DNA of 32,909 bases. Source: Chloroflexota bacterium (lineage in GTDB: Bacteria > Chloroflexota > Anaerolineae > Anaerolineales > Villigracilaceae). Within the stretch, counting starts at the first letter, position 1; each line of letters starts with the position of its first letter. Positions 11,761 to 20,221 of the stretch are shown piece by piece. Below the pieces are notes generated by a model that saw only the letters and a program-made list of their open reading frames with translations, was not told the DNA's origin and ran no database searches. Location: contig VGNF01000004.1 of assembly GCA_016866195.1 (NCBI GenBank), positions 1 to 32,909 on the forward strand. The letters are read 5' to 3'. A program made the translations under genes and the position numbers.

Positions 11761-12162
11761 TTACTTCAATGTACGGATGAAGGCAACAGCCTGCCAGATC
11801 TGCTCGTCGGTGAGAACGCCCCGCCAGGCCACCATTGAAGTTCCCTCCTTTCCGGAGGCAATCCTCCAGAACAGGTAATCATCCCCGGCGCGGGCCTGCA
11901 ACTCGGCGAGGTTTTTGGGGGCTGGGTCCAACGCGACACCAGCTGGACCATCGCCATAGCCCTGAGGACCGTGACACGATTCGCAATTGACCTGGAAAAC
12001 TTTCGCTCCTGCCGAAGCCGCATCCGTACCAAGTGGATTCGTCTGGCCGGCAAATTCAGCAGGAACTGGATCCAGCGGCACATTGGCTTCACTACCGCCG
12101 CCACCACAAGCTGCGATAACCAGCATACTCAGGACAAGGATGGGCATTTTCTTAATAAACAT
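11761..12162 (-). CDS. Class I cytochrome c lipoprotein
   Basis: Lipobox-like VIAACGGGG, CESCHGPQGYGDGP (CxxCH), SMVAW possible axial Met; RBS GGAGGTGAACG before ATG. Confidence 0.88.
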   Translation of the reverse strand: MFIKKMPILVLSMLVIAACGGGGSEANVPLDPVPAEFAGQTNPLGTDAASAGAKVFQVNCESCHGPQGYGDGPAGVALDPAPKNLAELQARAGDDYLFWRIASGKEGTSMVAWRGVLTDEQIWQAVAFIRTLK

Positions 12163-12192: not shown

Positions 12193-12198
12193 ATTATA
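12193..12198 (-). promoter_or_regulatory. -10 element of the cytochrome c promoter
   Basis: Exact TATAAT on the minus strand, about 40.5 bp from box centre to the inferred start site. Confidence 0.6.
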
Positions 12199-12218: not shown

Positions 12219-12234
12219 CGTGACTTAAGTTACA
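12219..12234 (-). promoter_or_regulatory. CRP/FNR-family-like operator box (cytochrome c side)
   Basis: Minus strand TGTAACTTAAGTCACG; TGTNA-N6-TNACA-like dyad, reverse-complement partner of the box at 12344-12359. Confidence 0.65.
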
Positions 12235-12343
12235 TCCAGGTTTTCGTACACTTGCTTAGCGAAGAATCCGGAGGCTGATTGAGAAGGGAGAACGAACCCA
12301 ATTGACCGCCGGTTTCACAAGGAAATGCATTTATAGGGATGTG

Positions 12344-12359
12344 TGTAACTTAAGTCACA
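12344..12359 (+). promoter_or_regulatory. CRP/FNR-family-like operator box (heme-copper operon side)
   Basis: TGTAACTTAAGTCACA; 15/16 identical to the first box when each is read in its direction of transcription. Confidence 0.65.
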
Positions 12360-12380: not shown

Positions 12381-12386
12381 TAAGAT
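12381..12386 (+). promoter_or_regulatory. Candidate -10 (TAAGAT) of the plus-strand heme-copper operon
   Basis: TAAGAT 21 nt after the upstream box, placing the box centre near -41.5. Confidence 0.4.
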
Positions 12387-12440
12387 ATAGCTAATAAGAC
12401 AAAACTTGTGAAATAACACACATTACTAAAGGAGAGTGCC

Positions 12441-12593
12441 ATGAACGAACAGAAAGGGAAAGAACCTGTTCCAGTAGGACAGAAATGGTTCGACAACGTC
12501 TGGTTGCTGTTCCTGCTCTCGCTCTTGATCAGCGGTTTGCTCTATAACGTTTGGGGGCTGGTCGACTTGATGAACGTCCCGCCCGCACCCTAG
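12441..12593 (+). CDS. 50-aa single-TM protein, candidate subunit IIa-like small subunit of the B-family heme-copper enzyme
   Basis: MNEQKGKEPVPVGQKWFDNVWLLFLLSLLISGLLYNVWGLVDLMNVPPAP; RBS AAAGGAGAG; immediately upstream of subunit II; below the supplied ORF-track cutoff. Confidence 0.75.
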   Translation: MNEQKGKEPVPVGQKWFDNVWLLFLLSLLISGLLYNVWGLVDLMNVPPAP

Positions 12594-12614: not shown

Positions 12615-13133
12615 ATGTTAGCTCCTGAACGAATTTGGTGGAAACCCATGGGCCGGCTGGAAAAGACCTGGCTTACCGTCGCCCTGGTCTGGTGTGTATT
12701 TCTCACGATAATGATGCCCTTGTGGTACCTGTACGGAAAACAAAATGTGCCTGCCGAAACCTACCGGGTGACCAAGGAAGCCTATTCCGCAAAGGTCAAC
12801 GAATTTGTCACCCAATTTCAGGTTGGCGAAGAAAACGGCATACCTGTTGTTGCGCCTCCCGCTGGAAGTGATATCTACCTGAGGGCGAGCACCTGGCAAT
12901 GGTATCCGATTCTGCAACTGGAAAAAGGGGAAATTTACCGCCTGCATCTTTCATCCATGGATCTTCAGCATGGATTCTCGCTTCAGCCTGTGAACATCAA
13001 CCTGCAAGTACTGCCGGGATACGATTACGTCGCGACCATCGTCCCGACTACCACCGGTGAGTTCACGGTCGTTTGCAACGAATATTGTTACCTCGGCCAT
13101 CACACCATGGTCGGTAAAGTGATAGTTAAGTAG
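12615..13133 (+). CDS. CuA-containing subunit II of ba3-like heme-copper enzyme
   Basis: Single N-terminal TM, LQHGFSL His and CNEYCYLGHHTM CuA motif. Confidence 0.92.
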   Translation: MLAPERIWWKPMGRLEKTWLTVALVWCVFLTIMMPLWYLYGKQNVPAETYRVTKEAYSAKVNEFVTQFQVGEENGIPVVAPPAGSDIYLRASTWQWYPILQLEKGEIYRLHLSSMDLQHGFSLQPVNINLQVLPGYDYVATIVPTTTGEFTVVCNEYCYLGHHTMVGKVIVK

Positions 13134-13147
13134 GAAGGAGGAATCCC

Positions 13148-14875
13148 ATGGCAACACTGGCACCTACAACCCAATGGACGAAAGGGGCAAAGGACGATTA
13201 TCGAACCTGCCCCGTCACCACTTTAAAAGTGGATTTGCATTCGGAACGCTTGATCATCGCCAACGCAGTCATGGCGGTGGTTTGTCTCGCTCTGGGCGGA
13301 ATCGCCGCTCTCCTGATCGCACTGACGCGCTGGCAGGCGATTCACCTGCTGGATGCGGCATGGTTCTACCGGTTGCTCACCCTCCACGGCATCGACATGC
13401 TTGTCGCGTGGATCGTATTCTTTGAAATGGCCGGCCTGCACTTTGGCTCGACCATCCTGCTCAATGCCAGACAAGCCAATCCAAAACTAGCCTGGTTCGG
13501 TTTCATCTTGATGACTGTAGGCGGATTGCTGGCGAACGGAGTGGTGCTCTTCGACAGCAATAGTATCGTGACCTTCACCGCGTATGTTCCACTCAAGGCT
13601 CACCCGCTGTTTTATTTGAGCTACATCCTGTTCGCGGTCGGGGCATTGATCACCGTGATCACGTTCTTCATCAACCTTGTCGTCGCCAAACGTGAAGGCC
13701 GATTCGAAGGTTCCCTCCCGCTGGTGGTATTCGGTCTGATGACTGCCGCCATCCTAGCTACCTACACGCTTCTCCAGGGCGCGGCTGCAATCGTTCCAGC
13801 CTTTTTTTGGTCCCTGGGCGTGTTACCCGAATATGATCCCGGAATCTATCGCAATTTCTTCTGGGGTTTTGGGCATCCAGCCCAACAAGTGAACCTGGCG
13901 GCCATGGTGGCGATCTGGTATGCACTGGCCCAGATGACCCTGGGAATTCGGCCTCTCAATGAAAAATTCTCCCGCCTGGCGTTCATCCTGTACCTGTTCT
14001 TCATCAACCTTGGTTCTGCCCATCACTTGTTGGTGGATCCCGGATTGTCCTTCGCGTGGAAGGCGGTCAATACATCCTATGCCATGTACCTGGCAGTTTT
14101 AGGTTCCATGATGCATGCATTCTCCATCCCCGCTGCAATGGAGGTTGCCCAGCGCGCAAAAGGCTTCACCAAGGGATTGTTTGGATGGCTGCGCAACGCT
14201 CCATGGAACGAACCGGGTTTCTCTTCACTCGTGGTCTCGATGATCCTCTTCGGATGGATTGGCGGAATTACCGGGGTGACCATCGGCACGGAGCAGATCA
14301 ACATGCTGGCTCACAACACCCTGCGATTGCCCGGTCACTTCCACGCGACAGTGGTCGGTGGAACCACGACCGCCTTCATGGGCTTTACGTATTATGTCAT
14401 TCCGTTGATCTTCCGAAAAGAATTGAAACTGAAGAAATGGGCGCAATGGCAGCCGTACGTCTATGGTGTCGGATCCGCCCTGGTTTCGTTGGGCATGATC
14501 ACCAGCGGACTGCAGGGTGTTTCGCGGCGCAACTGGGACATCACCTTTGCGGGTGTCGTTCCTGGAACGGTCGACCTTACCCTGGCCATTTTTGGCATTG
14601 GCGCCCTGATCGCCGTCACGGGCGGCATCATGTACCTCACGGTCGTCCTTGCCTCGGTGTTCACCGGCCCGCGCATGGAAGCCGGTCAATTATTGCTGGT
14701 GGCTGGATCGCAAAATCCCCTGCTCGAATCCACAAAACTGACCGACGAACAGATGGAAAGACCGCAGAACCAGCCGAAAGGTACCCTGGTATTGGTCTTC
14801 GCATTCCTGGTCTGGTTTGCTGTGTACTACCTCAGCAATTGGTGGTTGCTCGGTCGTACCTGGTTCATCCGCTAA
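13148..14875 (+). CDS. B-family (ba3-like) heme-copper subunit I lacking the active-site Tyr; candidate nitric oxide reductase-like enzyme
   Basis: LHGIDM, FWGFGHPAQQVN, SAHHLLVDPG, LPGHFHATV align with T. thermophilus ba3 motifs recalled from memory; six His retained, HPIVY Tyr replaced by Gln. Confidence 0.92.
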   Translation: MATLAPTTQWTKGAKDDYRTCPVTTLKVDLHSERLIIANAVMAVVCLALGGIAALLIALTRWQAIHLLDAAWFYRLLTLHGIDMLVAWIVFFEMAGLHFGSTILLNARQANPKLAWFGFILMTVGGLLANGVVLFDSNSIVTFTAYVPLKAHPLFYLSYILFAVGALITVITFFINLVVAKREGRFEGSLPLVVFGLMTAAILATYTLLQGAAAIVPAFFWSLGVLPEYDPGIYRNFFWGFGHPAQQVNLAAMVAIWYALAQMTLGIRPLNEKFSRLAFILYLFFINLGSAHHLLVDPGLSFAWKAVNTSYAMYLAVLGSMMHAFSIPAAMEVAQRAKGFTKGLFGWLRNAPWNEPGFSSLVVSMILFGWIGGITGVTIGTEQINMLAHNTLRLPGHFHATVVGGTTTAFMGFTYYVIPLIFRKELKLKKWAQWQPYVYGVGSALVSLGMITSGLQGVSRRNWDITFAGVVPGTVDLTLAIFGIGALIAVTGGIMYLTVVLASVFTGPRMEAGQLLLVAGSQNPLLESTKLTDEQMERPQNQPKGTLVLVFAFLVWFAVYYLSNWWLLGRTWFIR

Positions 14876-14955: not shown

Positions 14956-15630
14956 TTGTTGTATACCACTTTATTCCTTGGATTATTGGGCAGTCTGGGT
15001 CATTGTGTGGGAATGTGCAGTGCTGTGATCATCCTGCTTGACAGACAAGCCTCGTTTCAGGGCAGCCGCCGATCCTGGCTGTTTGCCCATCTTGGACGCA
15101 TTACCACTTATGCAGGCCTCGGTTTTATATTTGGATTTTTCAGCGAATCGATTTGGTTCTTATCAACAAATTTGGCCGGCATTCAGGGATCTCTCTCGAT
15201 TCTCTTTGGTATTTTCGCCTTTTACATGGCGTTGGTTTTCATCGGACTTGGAAGGTCGCCTGAATTATGGCTCACAAACCTAGTTGCCAAATGGGGAAAA
15301 GCATTTCGTGGATTGAAATCCCCCGCCCCTTTCGTCGCGGGGTTGCTGTGGGGGTTGTTACCCTGCGGACTTGTCATCACCGCCCTGATCCCAGTCATGG
15401 CTTCGTTAAATGCCATTCAGGGTGCGTTGAACATGATCGTGTTCGGGATCGCCACCGTCCCTAGTCTCTTCGCCGTGGGTTGGTTGACGCAGAACACGAT
15501 CTCAAAAACCTTGTCTCGAAGCCTCGCTTCGATTGTGATGATGATCTTCGGAATTCAATTCGCCATGCGCGGATTCGCCTCCCTCGGCGTGGTAGACCAT
15601 TTATTGATCGGCAATTTAATGATTTGGTAA
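14956..15630 (+). CDS. TauE/SafE - UreH-like membrane protein (cytochrome/copper biogenesis-type)
   Basis: LLYTTLFLGLLGSLGHCVGMC...GLLWGLLPCGLV, typical COG2836-like; start uncertain (TTG at 14956, or ATG at 14908 inside the hairpin loop). Confidence 0.7.
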   Translation: MLYTTLFLGLLGSLGHCVGMCSAVIILLDRQASFQGSRRSWLFAHLGRITTYAGLGFIFGFFSESIWFLSTNLAGIQGSLSILFGIFAFYMALVFIGLGRSPELWLTNLVAKWGKAFRGLKSPAPFVAGLLWGLLPCGLVITALIPVMASLNAIQGALNMIVFGIATVPSLFAVGWLTQNTISKTLSRSLASIVMMIFGIQFAMRGFASLGVVDHLLIGNLMIW

Positions 15631-15668
15631 TTTTCATCAGAAATACATATTCTTATTCTCTTCCGCAA

Positions 15669-18074
15669 ATGAACCTCGCCGCCACTTCCGTTCGGTCACT
15701 CGCCTCCTGCTCATTGTGCGGGTTGACCACCCTGCACCCACTCACAAATCTTCGAGGAGATGTTTTTTGCTGTCCTTCGTGCAAAGAGGTCGCGGCATTG
15801 TTGGCAGAAAATCCGCCGGTCGCAAAGGCGCAGACGGAGACTCTTTCCTCTCAGGGTCGAACTCGGACGAGGATCGAAAATCTCACACTTAGGTTGGGAG
15901 ACATGTGGTGCCCGTCATGTGCCTGGCTGGTCAGCGAGCAATTGCGCCGCACCGCCGGAGTAAATACTGCGGAAGTAAGTTTTATCCAACAACAGGCAAA
16001 CTTGACCTTTGATGGGGCCATCACAAATCCACAAAAACTTAAGAAACGAATTCGCTCTTTGGGTTACAAGGCAAGTTTGCCGACGGAAAAACCGCGCGAC
16101 GAGGAGGAATCGTTCTTTACGCGGCTGTTGATCGGTGGCGTGATGGTGCTCCATGACATGATCGTGGGCGGGGGAATCTATATTCGCGAGGCATTGGGCT
16201 GGGCCTCGCCCGAGACGCAATGGCTGGTGGATTTTTTTCAACTAATGATGCTTGTGACAAGCCTGCCTGTGTTGGTTTTGCTTGGTCTGCCGATCCTGCG
16301 TGCCGGCCTTGCGAGCTTGTTGAGAGGCAAGCCAAACATCCATACGCTTATCACGATTGGAACCTTTTCGGCGGTCGGTTTGTCTGTGCGGAATATGATC
16401 GTCGGCTCCGGCGGGCAATACTTCGACACAGCCACCATGCTGATCTTCTTGATTTCGATCGGCCGCTGGCTGGAAATGCAAGCTCATAAATCCTCTTCGA
16501 AAGCGGTGGGGCATCTGCTCGAACAAATTCCCGAACAGGCGACAGTGGTTACACAGGAGGGCGATAAGACCGTTCGCGCCTCGGATTTGCGCCCAGGACA
16601 GCGCGTGCGTGTGCGACCGGGAGAAAAATTCCCCATAGACGGGTTGATCGCGGCTGGAGAAGGGGATGTTGACAAATCTCTTTTGACCGGTGAACCGCGC
16701 CCGGTCACACACCGGGCTGGCGAGGCGGTTCAAGCCGGGACCTTGAACCTGGACGGCAGCTTCGAGGTCATCGCCACCGCTATAGGGGACTCGACCGTCG
16801 CAGGTCAGGTCGGCCGCCTGCTTCATCAGGCTCTGTGGAATCGATCCCCCCTGGAGCGTCTCGCCGATAAATTGTCCGCCTGGATGACTCCCTTCGCTTT
16901 GGTACTCGCGACCATAGCTTTCTTATTCTGGAACAACCAATCCGGATTCGAAAGCGGATTGTTGGTTGCCTTGTCCATTTTATTGATTGCCTGTCCTTGT
17001 GCCCTGGGATTGGCTACACCTTTAACCCTGTGGCTGGCTGTAGGTCGTGCAGCCGATTCAGGCGTCATCATGCGCAGTACGGCCGCGCTGGAGAGGCTGG
17101 CAAAAGTGGAGAAAGTATTCTTCGACAAGACCGGAACCTTAACGAAACTCCCGATGAGGGTGATGGAGGTATATGCAACCTCTCGCGTGGTCCACTCCCT
17201 CCACTCTTCGGAAAACGAGCCGAGGATGATGGAGAAAGCTTTCCTCCAAGTCGTGGCATCTGTGGAGCGCGAGTCGGAGCATCCTCTGGCTAAGGCGATT
17301 GTAGACTACGCCGGAGACATCAAGTTATCGACCACAGAATCATTCAAAGCGCTGCCCGGTATGGGCGTGAAGGCCGTATTGAACGGTGAAGAAATTATCA
17401 TCGGAAACGAGGTGCTTCTTTCGCGCGAGCAGATCCAAATCACGGATCGGATCAAGGATGAGGCTGAAATCTTGAAAAAGGCAGGGCAGATGGTGGTATT
17501 CGCCGGCTGGGGGGGGCAGGTTCAAGGATTGATCGGCCTGGGCGAGACGGTCCGTGAAGAGGCCAGGGATGTTCTCGACCGCCTCCACTCCCGCGGTTTG
17601 AGCCTTGGTGTATTGACCGGGGACGAAACCCACGCAGGCGAGAGATGGCAGGCGACCCTCGGCATACCCGTTTATGCGGGATTAAATCCCAGCGAAAAAA
17701 TGTCCCACCTGACCGACAAGACGGCAATGATCGGCGACGGAATCAATGACGCGCCTTCGCTCGCCGCCTCCACGGTGGGTCTGGCGATGAGTCATGGCAC
17801 GGACGTAGCACGTACGGCGGCAGACATCGTCCTGATGCGCGATGACTTGCGCGTCCTGCCCTGGTTGTTTGATTTGTCCAAGATTACAATGCGGCGCGTC
17901 AAAGAGAACCTCGGCTGGGCATTCATTTACAATATCATCGGTATTGGTTTGGCGATGGCGGGCTTGATGAAACCCGTCTACGCGGCACTTGCCATGGTGA
18001 TGAGCAGCATCTTCGTCACGGCAAACGCAATGCGGATGAATACATATCCCCTGCTGGAAAAGGAAGCTGATTAG
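15669..18074 (+). CDS. P1B-type copper-translocating ATPase, CcoI-like
   Basis: N-terminal CSLCG...CCPSC and MWCPSC metal-binding motifs, CPCALGLATP, DKTGTLTK, GDGINDAPSLA; start at MNLAATS (15669) rather than 15480. Confidence 0.93.
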   Translation: MNLAATSVRSLASCSLCGLTTLHPLTNLRGDVFCCPSCKEVAALLAENPPVAKAQTETLSSQGRTRTRIENLTLRLGDMWCPSCAWLVSEQLRRTAGVNTAEVSFIQQQANLTFDGAITNPQKLKKRIRSLGYKASLPTEKPRDEEESFFTRLLIGGVMVLHDMIVGGGIYIREALGWASPETQWLVDFFQLMMLVTSLPVLVLLGLPILRAGLASLLRGKPNIHTLITIGTFSAVGLSVRNMIVGSGGQYFDTATMLIFLISIGRWLEMQAHKSSSKAVGHLLEQIPEQATVVTQEGDKTVRASDLRPGQRVRVRPGEKFPIDGLIAAGEGDVDKSLLTGEPRPVTHRAGEAVQAGTLNLDGSFEVIATAIGDSTVAGQVGRLLHQALWNRSPLERLADKLSAWMTPFALVLATIAFLFWNNQSGFESGLLVALSILLIACPCALGLATPLTLWLAVGRAADSGVIMRSTAALERLAKVEKVFFDKTGTLTKLPMRVMEVYATSRVVHSLHSSENEPRMMEKAFLQVVASVERESEHPLAKAIVDYAGDIKLSTTESFKALPGMGVKAVLNGEEIIIGNEVLLSREQIQITDRIKDEAEILKKAGQMVVFAGWGGQVQGLIGLGETVREEARDVLDRLHSRGLSLGVLTGDETHAGERWQATLGIPVYAGLNPSEKMSHLTDKTAMIGDGINDAPSLAASTVGLAMSHGTDVARTAADIVLMRDDLRVLPWLFDLSKITMRRVKENLGWAFIYNIIGIGLAMAGLMKPVYAALAMVMSSIFVTANAMRMNTYPLLEKEAD

Positions 18075-18104
18075 AGATAATCCGCACGGAGGGAGAGTTC
18101 CCAT

Positions 18105-18179
18105 ATGGACAAAGCCACATTGGGATATTTCCCCCGCGCCCATTATGACCCACGTAAAGAATTGGATCCCCTGCGATGA
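18105..18179 (+). CDS. 24-aa putative microprotein translationally coupled to the cytochrome b fusion
   Basis: GGAGGGAGAG RBS then ATG; MDKATLGYFPRAHYDPRKELDPLR; stop overlaps next start (ATGA). Confidence 0.5.
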   Translation: MDKATLGYFPRAHYDPRKELDPLR

Positions 18180-20221
18180 CTGCCAGAACATACGCTGAAC
18201 GACGCTTCATGCGCGCCCTCGAAAGAACCTGGGCGCTCATCGAGGGCGTGGTCAACCGCTATTCCAAATCGGATTTCAACCCCCTCCCCCATCTGGGAAC
18301 GTTGACAATACTGTTGCTGGTCGTCTTGATTGTGACGGGCATTTATCTAACAATCTATTACCGCCCCGGCTCTGACGTGGCATTTGCGACCGTTGAAACG
18401 CTCAGTTCAAACTGGTTTGGCCAGTTGATGAGGAGTATCCACCGCTACGCGTCCGACGGGATGATCGTGCTGATCCTCCTGCACTTCATCAAGATGCTGG
18501 TCAGTGACCGATTCTGGGGTCAACGATGGCTGGCATGGACCAGCGGCTGGCTGATGCTCGCCACGACCTGGCTGGTGGGGACGATGGGGTTCTGGCTGAT
18601 CTGGGATCAGCGCGCCCAGTGGATGACCGAGTATATGATGAGAACCGTCGCCGGAGGTTCCGGCCTGACCTACGTCGCAAACGACCTGGCCGCGCGCACA
18701 TTTTCAAACTTTGTGATCATTCTGTTCCTGCACGTCTTTTTACCGCTGATCGGTTTTTTGGGAGTTTATATTCACAGCCTTCGTTTATCGCGGGCGCGTT
18801 GGTGGTCACCTCGCTGGGCGATCGCACAAACCCTGGCCGGTTTGATCATCCTCTCCTTGATCAAGCCCTCCACCTCTAGCGCGCAGGCGGATCTATCGAG
18901 ATTCATATCGAATGTTCCCATGGACGCTTTCTACCTTGGATTCTTGCCTATAATCGATGCCTGGGGAAATCTGATCTTTTGGAGTCTGGCAATTCTGGTC
19001 GGTGGCACGTGTTTTCTCCTTCCATGGATTTTCAAAGGGAAGGACCTCGGGCCGGCGGTGATCACGAACGATAAATGCACCGGCTGCAATATTTGTTTTG
19101 CAGAATGCCCCTTTGACGCGATTCGAATGGCTCCCCGATCGGACGCCACCGGTTTTCAAAAACTGGCTGTGATTATCGAACGCCAGTGTACGGGATGCGG
19201 GATTTGTGTCGGCGCCTGCCCGGAGGATGCGGTTGAATTGGCCGGGGGATTTAATGGAGACCAGCTCTTCAACGCAATCAAGGGGGCGCTTCGACGGGAA
19301 CAGGAGGAAGGTAACGAAGGCACCGTATTGTTTGCCAGTCAAAGGGATCTTTCCCTCGGCGGTTTACCCCCCGCTTGCATCACACACGCCCCAGTCACTA
19401 CTTGTACCTGGAATGGCAGATTCCGACTCGTGACTGCGATTCTACCTACTGCCAGCACGATCAACATTGATTGGATCAAGGTCCTGCCGCAAGAGGGAGC
19501 TCGGGCGATCGTCATTCTTTCTCACCCATATGACGATGGCATTTTCAGGGAGGATTCGCACTGGATTCTCAATCGATTGCACCTCCGTCCCGCGTTGATC
19601 AGCGGGGACCTGCACTGGCTTGAGACAACCCCGGGCGATTCAACGACTGTAACAAACTTTCTGGATGGCCTACACGAATCAGAGCTGAAAGATAGGGAAC
19701 GCTCCCCGACCTTGCCGCCTGTGAAAGGCAGGTATAAATTAATCCCCTCCATTTCCGGAGGTTTGGCGGGCATCTTCTTGATGCTGGCCTTGTTTTCGAT
19801 CGCATTGCCGCTGGACATCCGGTCCGGAATGAAAGATGCCGATGGAAGCGGACTACGGATAGCCGTCGACGCGAAAGGCAAGATCGAAGTCGCGGCCATA
19901 CCGGAAGGATTTACCCTGCCCGAAGGTGCGGATGCCGAGAAAATCTTCGGGGGACAACATTATCCGATGGAAATTATGGTGACGGTGGACGGGAAAGATG
20001 CACTGAAGGAAATCTACCAACCTTCCGGTTTAAGCGGGAATGGAAGGATTTCGGCGCTTGATTTCCTGACCATCGAACCTGGATCGCATGAAATCCTCAT
20101 CAATATAAGAGACGACAACGCGGTATTCCGAACGGTATTCTCCGACAGCGTCACTTTTGAACAGGGGGCGATTCGCGTCCTCGCCTACGATGAAGGGAAG
20201 GATGAATTCATTATGCGATAA
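18176..20221 (+). CDS. Cytochrome b(6)-like / 2x[4Fe-4S] ferredoxin / MvhD-like / extracytoplasmic domain fusion
   Basis: Two His pairs each 14 residues apart (HRYASDGMIVLILLH; HVFLPLIGFLGVYIH), CTGCNICFAECP and CTGCGICVGACP, then an MvhD-like region, TM and C-terminal domain. Confidence 0.88.
   Translation: MTARTYAERRFMRALERTWALIEGVVNRYSKSDFNPLPHLGTLTILLLVVLIVTGIYLTIYYRPGSDVAFATVETLSSNWFGQLMRSIHRYASDGMIVLILLHFIKMLVSDRFWGQRWLAWTSGWLMLATTWLVGTMGFWLIWDQRAQWMTEYMMRTVAGGSGLTYVANDLAARTFSNFVIILFLHVFLPLIGFLGVYIHSLRLSRARWWSPRWAIAQTLAGLIILSLIKPSTSSAQADLSRFISNVPMDAFYLGFLPIIDAWGNLIFWSLAILVGGTCFLLPWIFKGKDLGPAVITNDKCTGCNICFAECPFDAIRMAPRSDATGFQKLAVIIERQCTGCGICVGACPEDAVELAGGFNGDQLFNAIKGALRREQEEGNEGTVLFASQRDLSLGGLPPACITHAPVTTCTWNGRFRLVTAILPTASTINIDWIKVLPQEGARAIVILSHPYDDGIFREDSHWILNRLHLRPALISGDLHWLETTPGDSTTVTNFLDGLHESELKDRERSPTLPPVKGRYKLIPSISGGLAGIFLMLALFSIALPLDIRSGMKDADGSGLRIAVDAKGKIEVAAIPEGFTLPEGADAEKIFGGQHYPMEIMVTVDGKDALKEIYQPSGLSGNGRISALDFLTIEPGSHEILINIRDDNAVFRTVFSDSVTFEQGAIRVLAYDEGKDEFIMR

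Follow-up and report, generated by a model that had tools for sequence, protein, structure and literature searches.

The two boxes between the eNOR operon and a cytochrome c gene in the window, the whole 32,909-nucleotide stretch of Chloroflexota (Villigracilaceae) DNA analysed here, are best explained by one Crp/Fnr-family activator that would bind both in class II position at two independent, divergent promoters, and we hold this explanation with considerable confidence. One promoter would serve the eNOR operon, encoding a 50-aa protein, the CuA subunit II and subunit I; the other would serve the cytochrome c, which probably passes electrons to eNOR. Since nrfHA (nitrite to ammonia) is preceded by this site at an identical spacing, the predicted regulon would couple nitrite ammonification with the clearance of NO leaking from nitrite reduction, and the activator is likely the 226-aa Crp/Fnr protein of contig C31, whose gene adjoins nrfA. 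On balance we expect this regulator to respond to a nitrogen-oxide signal; as the targets produce NO and clear it, that signal would be NO or nitrite. The mechanism is ordinary, even textbook; the regulon is new.

An earlier note on this DNA had described two CRP/FNR-like boxes at this intergenic region, and both 16-bp boxes were located where it put them (Table 1), 15/16 identical, with centres 125 bp apart and with gaps of 20 nt to the minus-strand TATAAT and 21 nt to the plus-strand TAAGAT. At up to three mismatches the window holds these two places only, which yield four matches because each box is nearly palindromic and is counted on both strands; shuffled sequences lead one to expect 0.22 matches, and none of 100 reached four. 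The caa3 operon is therefore without a similar box, as the note had judged by eye.

Table 1. Features of the predicted regulon, with positions in the window unless a locus is named.
Feature	Position	Strand	Remarks
Cytochrome c, 133 aa, lipoprotein-like, monohaem	11761..12162	-	Cytochrome_CBB3, CESCHG
-10 hexamer TATAAT, cytochrome c promoter	12193..12198	-	20 nt after box; 17 unlinked orthologs have an exact TATAAT 20-22 nt away
Activator box TGTAACTTAAGTCACG, cytochrome c promoter	12219..12234	-	predicted site; conserved upstream of linked and unlinked orthologs
Activator box TGTAACTTAAGTCACA, eNOR operon promoter	12344..12359	+	predicted site; conserved at orthologous operons
-10 hexamer TAAGAT, eNOR operon promoter	12381..12386	+	21 nt after box; TATAAT-like hexamer there in 23/25 orthologs
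Leader element TTGTGAAATAACACACATTA, degenerate Crp-like palindrome	12406..12425	+	predicted 5' leader of eNOR operon
eNOR operon gene 1, 50-aa single-helix membrane protein	12441..12593	+	54-aa ortholog in L048
eNOR subunit II (P0002), cupredoxin, CuA motif CNEYCYLGHHTM	12615..13133	+	COX2-like, weak match
eNOR subunit I, helix VI GHPAQQ	13148..14875	+	Gln replaces cross-linked Tyr
Candidate regulator, 226-aa Crp/Fnr protein	L014:4638-5318 (contig C31)		beside nrfA

The operon had been called NOR-like; that character stands and is refined to eNOR by the Gln signature. GHPAQQ is present in 30/30 subunit I orthologs, so that Gln occupies the active-site Tyr position, and the cupredoxin subunit II lies directly upstream. 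Subunit I is a haem-copper protein whose closest solved structures are ba3-type oxidases. According to Table A4 of PMC8756737, eNOR is marked by a Gln where other enzymes have the cross-linked Tyr, and CuANOR and sNOR have Asn. The bNOR/CuANOR type was considered since CuA is retained, and was ruled out on the grounds that CuANOR has Asn, not Gln. The enzyme thus carries the eNOR signature, and its role as an NO reductase is predicted. The eNOR of SURF MAG 42 (PMC8756737), also from Anaerolineales, shares the Gln signature and the cupredoxin subunit II just 5'; the portions of that publication available to us describe no regulator or promoter for it, whereas here a promoter box and a candidate regulator can be named. 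The publication also reports eNOR genes in many Anaerolineales and their frequent annotation as oxygen reductases. The region 3' of the eNOR operon (15480-20221) encodes a copper P-type ATPase and a cytochrome b/ferredoxin fusion.

The consensus of the box is TGTRAC-N4-GTYACA. In the 3.6-Mb genome it occurs at up to two mismatches in five places, against four for the reversed control, and this number is by itself not striking. The places are the two window boxes, the nrfH promoter (C20:489), a position near a Crp/Fnr gene (C12:5773) and one at focA (C83:3505); the genome scan that had been proposed earlier thus returned matches at nitrogen-oxide genes or beside a Crp/Fnr gene. With the tighter pattern TGTRACWWWWGTYACA the counts are 4 against 0 in our own genome, including an additional place at C12:2479, and 94 against 12 when summed over the table of 152 genomes of the family. 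That the matches are chance palindromes, as the near-equal genome-wide counts at two mismatches might suggest, has a negligible probability given the conservation of the box in many genomes against unconserved flanks, its fixed spacing and its coherent targets; the box is real and beyond chance. The site before the formate/nitrite (FocA/FNT) transporter gene (TTGTGAATTAATTCACAA, L012:3505-3520, contig C83) lies immediately 3' of a TATAAT, a repressor-like place, and was excluded from the regulon for this position and because it fits only at up to two mismatches.

The earlier note had staked its reading on conservation in orthologous intergenic regions, and there both the box and its class II spacing were kept. 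The upstream regions of 30 orthologous operons (our own and 29 others, subunit I 84-91% identical) and of 10 further ones chosen deliberately were read, and the box is present at 28 of these 40, 799-827 bp 5' of subunit I. The box columns of the eNOR promoter alignment carry a mean of 1.62 bits per base versus 0.21 in the 5' flank, and the box is almost always the sole match in the neighbourhoods of up to 17 kb examined. When the eNOR, nrfH and cytochrome c promoters are pooled, 32 of the 37 have a -10 hexamer 21 nt 3' of their box, and in a spacing control of 200 shuffles no position rose above 11. Judged from predicted start sites, this fixed distance is that of a class II Crp/Fnr-dependent promoter with the site centre near -41.5, as had been claimed. 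Class II promoters of E. coli CRP have TGTGA-type half sites centred near -41.5, with the -35 element unnecessary; the boxes here have the half-site type and the centre in common with them.

Occupying -33 to -49, the box overlaps the -35 region, and it could in principle be a repressor operator blocking that region, a reading with which the repressor-like places of the leader element (12406-12425) and of the focA site right behind its TATAAT (C83) would agree. We consider this improbable, given that no -35 hexamer is evident and that the 21-nt gap to the -10 is constant across unrelated promoters, as expected of an activator contacting RNA polymerase. The eNOR and cytochrome c promoters are separate units, since the distance between the divergent boxes varies (125, 104, 93 and 94 bp, and more than 250 bp in L031). 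The spacing of about 12 helical turns put forward earlier is therefore no shared architecture, and we gave up the idea that the two boxes are in helical phase.

The earlier proposal that one sensor controls both this cytochrome c and the NOR operon gains strength from boxes at cytochrome c orthologs far from the NOR operon. The cytochrome c gene beside the eNOR operon has its own box in all box-bearing cases (our own genome, L018, L024, L025 and L031), and 17 of 23 unlinked orthologs combine a box (up to two mismatches) with an exact TATAAT at 20-22 nt. Because these unlinked orthologs keep their own box, the pairing is no by-product of the divergent arrangement; the remaining 6/23, without the box and TATAAT pair, count against our explanation. 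The cytochrome c is the likely electron donor to the eNOR CuA site. In the unlinked cytochrome c promoters of L217, L220, L222, L223, L228, L229, L232, L235 and L242 a further TTCACA or CTCACA stands between box and TATAAT, some 10 nt from the box; it is perhaps a second overlapping site.

The proposed scope, cytochrome c and NOR operon, held and was widened by nrfHA, which has the same box. In nine genomes (our own and eight relatives) the box of the nrfH promoter lies 52-65 bp from the start codon. Six relatives fetched have the gene order PRTase-regulator-nrfA-nrfH, and in five of these nrfH is preceded by a box; in our own genome this cluster is split over contigs C31 and C20, both of which end within it. 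Further cases have the box and a C31-type regulator a few kb apart on a single contig. The switch common to eNOR and nrfHA provides independent support for an enzyme acting on nitrogen oxides, and it bears on the conditions that lead these bacteria to NO consumption and N2O release.

Three proteins of our own genome have a convincing Crp helix-turn-helix and a cNMP-like domain, and the C31 protein is a fairly likely identity for the activator. It belongs to the Crp/Fnr superfamily by both domains, which score above cut-off (cNMP_binding 90.9 bits, HTH_Crp_2 47.3 bits). By p-values that ignore kinship, the box pattern occurs in 53 of 89 genomes with a C31 ortholog versus 10 of 63 without (p=5e-8), and the reversed-control pattern shows no association with the ortholog (p=0.07). 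Where promoter types were assigned by hand from the upstream reads, the C31 regulator is present in 26/28 genomes with a type A (box) NOR promoter and in 0/8 with type B (p=1.5e-6, again ignoring kinship), the type B promoters forming one eNOR clade by identity and therefore not representing independent events; it is also found in 3/4 genomes with type C eNOR promoters, which have neither site. Several exceptions count against C31: G143 and G147 have the box without the ortholog, and G145, G096 and G124 have the ortholog without a box at eNOR.

The recognition helix TVREVVAR(S) is conserved across 30 C31 orthologs. Its Arg and Glu occupy the positions associated with site bases G3 and A6 (PMC1274295), and both bases are retained in TGTRAC. 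We infer binding and activation by the C31 protein from sequence features, the boxes, spacing, conservation, regulon content, synteny and recognition-helix residues themselves being directly observable. The hinge helix SEMAFYQVTHRLARLI is invariant in C31-type proteins, as are H158 and H126, which would be the candidate residues if the protein senses through haem. Among the C31 orthologs we found no N-terminal Cys group for a 4Fe-4S cluster of the FNR kind, only C54 and C109 being nearly conserved, and no Arg-Ser pair of the CRP cAMP pocket, where an invariant P100 and a near-invariant N99 are aligned; in the alignment with GlxR, too, Asn/Pro-type residues stand where that protein has its cAMP-pocket Arg and Thr/Ser. 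Among 396 sampled genomes of the class, close C31 orthologs are confined to the window's own family. More tentatively, and with slightly less than even chances, the C31 type might be a family-restricted, dedicated nitrogen-oxide sensor of neither FNR nor cAMP kind that governs eNOR, the cytochrome and nrfHA, with tuning by the leader operator and with a swapped promoter in some relatives.

The strongest competitor for the role is the paralog P0004 (contig C12, L010:3878-4558), which could be the activator here, or share the sites with C31, with boxes and geometry the same. Its gene lies between two boxes, one at C12:5773, 1.2 kb downstream, the other at C12:2479, 1.4 kb upstream, for which it was our first pick, and its helix STREVVCR is likewise of the R-E-x-x-x-R kind and equally suitable. 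Its absence from half of the box-bearing genomes cost it the place of main candidate: just 13 of the 28 genomes whose NOR operon has the box contain a P0004 relative, relative and box are weakly associated (p=0.05), and close orthologs (78%) are found in two genomes only. We thus consider it an unlikely alternative to C31. The Crp/Fnr protein of contig C2 was set aside, its recognition helix ASRKRVNQA being without the Glu.

Crp/Fnr proteins regulate denitrification genes elsewhere, for example DNR and NnrR in Proteobacteria. The DNR site, TTGAT-N4-ATCAA, differs from the box here, and in a PDB search DNR (3dkw) matched the C31 protein modestly (E=4e-14), ranking below GlxR/CRP-type proteins. 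HcpR, a Crp/Fnr regulator of nitrogen-oxide genes including nrfHA in Geobacter and Desulfuromonas, recognizes TGTGA-N6-TCACA, or GTAAC-N4-GTTAC in its HcpR2 form (PMC1274295, PMC5701242). The present system resembles it in site, which comes near a mixture of both forms, in the R-E-R helix of C31, as in HcpR1, and in having nrfHA as a target; HcpR controls hcp/frdX, whereas no hcp/frdX gene appeared among the predicted targets here, which are eNOR, its cytochrome and nrfHA. Nitrogen-oxide regulons under HcpR, DNR and NnrR are thus already known (PMC1274295, PMC5701242). We found no published regulon for Chloroflexota eNOR in the open-access literature, where the regulon, the site form and a candidate regulator for Anaerolineales eNOR appear undescribed; ours would be the first predicted regulon for eNOR, with one regulator gene named as candidate.

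The leader element, of the form TTGTGAAA-NNAN-RCACATTAC, lies 60-67 bp 3' of the box in nearly all box-bearing eNOR promoters, is single in our own genome at up to two mismatches, and was absent from the eNOR promoters of the other type among the relatives' promoters examined. It may be a second operator, or may act as RNA instead. That it carries the specific nitrogen-oxide response, leaving the box to set only a general Crp-like level, would fit its being unique in the genome and about as conserved as the box; this reading has little chance, however, as the promoters of nrfH and of cytochrome c have the box but no such element was seen in them.

Eight relatives without the C31 regulator (L191-L196, L198 and L043) carry at almost the same place in the eNOR promoter a type B site (typically TGTGACATTYWTCACA) with a 22-nt gap to the -10 and often with an upstream copy TGATAAATGTCAC; six of these genomes each hold a single match to the tight type B pattern. 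By its sequence this is a different Crp-like site, a predicted promoter swap preserving class II geometry. The eNOR promoters of L039, L040, L041 and L045 form a third type, in which both box and leader element are absent; upstream they share an inverted repeat around AAAAAGAGTGAT...ATCACTCTTTTT.

Adjoining the Crp/Fnr gene of contig C12 is P0005 (L010:4623-5708), a 361-aa membrane protein with no family match in the family search even at E=10; L089, L105 and L093 have homologs about 73% identical, no more than 8 kb away from their eNOR operon. A C12-type Crp/Fnr relative in L128 (G122:C181:193-828) carries an in-frame TAA. On the same locus as P0005, a box TGTGACAAATGTCACA and an AATAAT at class II distance precede L010:1780-2391, which encodes a membrane protein of 203 aa that belongs to no known family, and a similar protein with the same box is found in L055.
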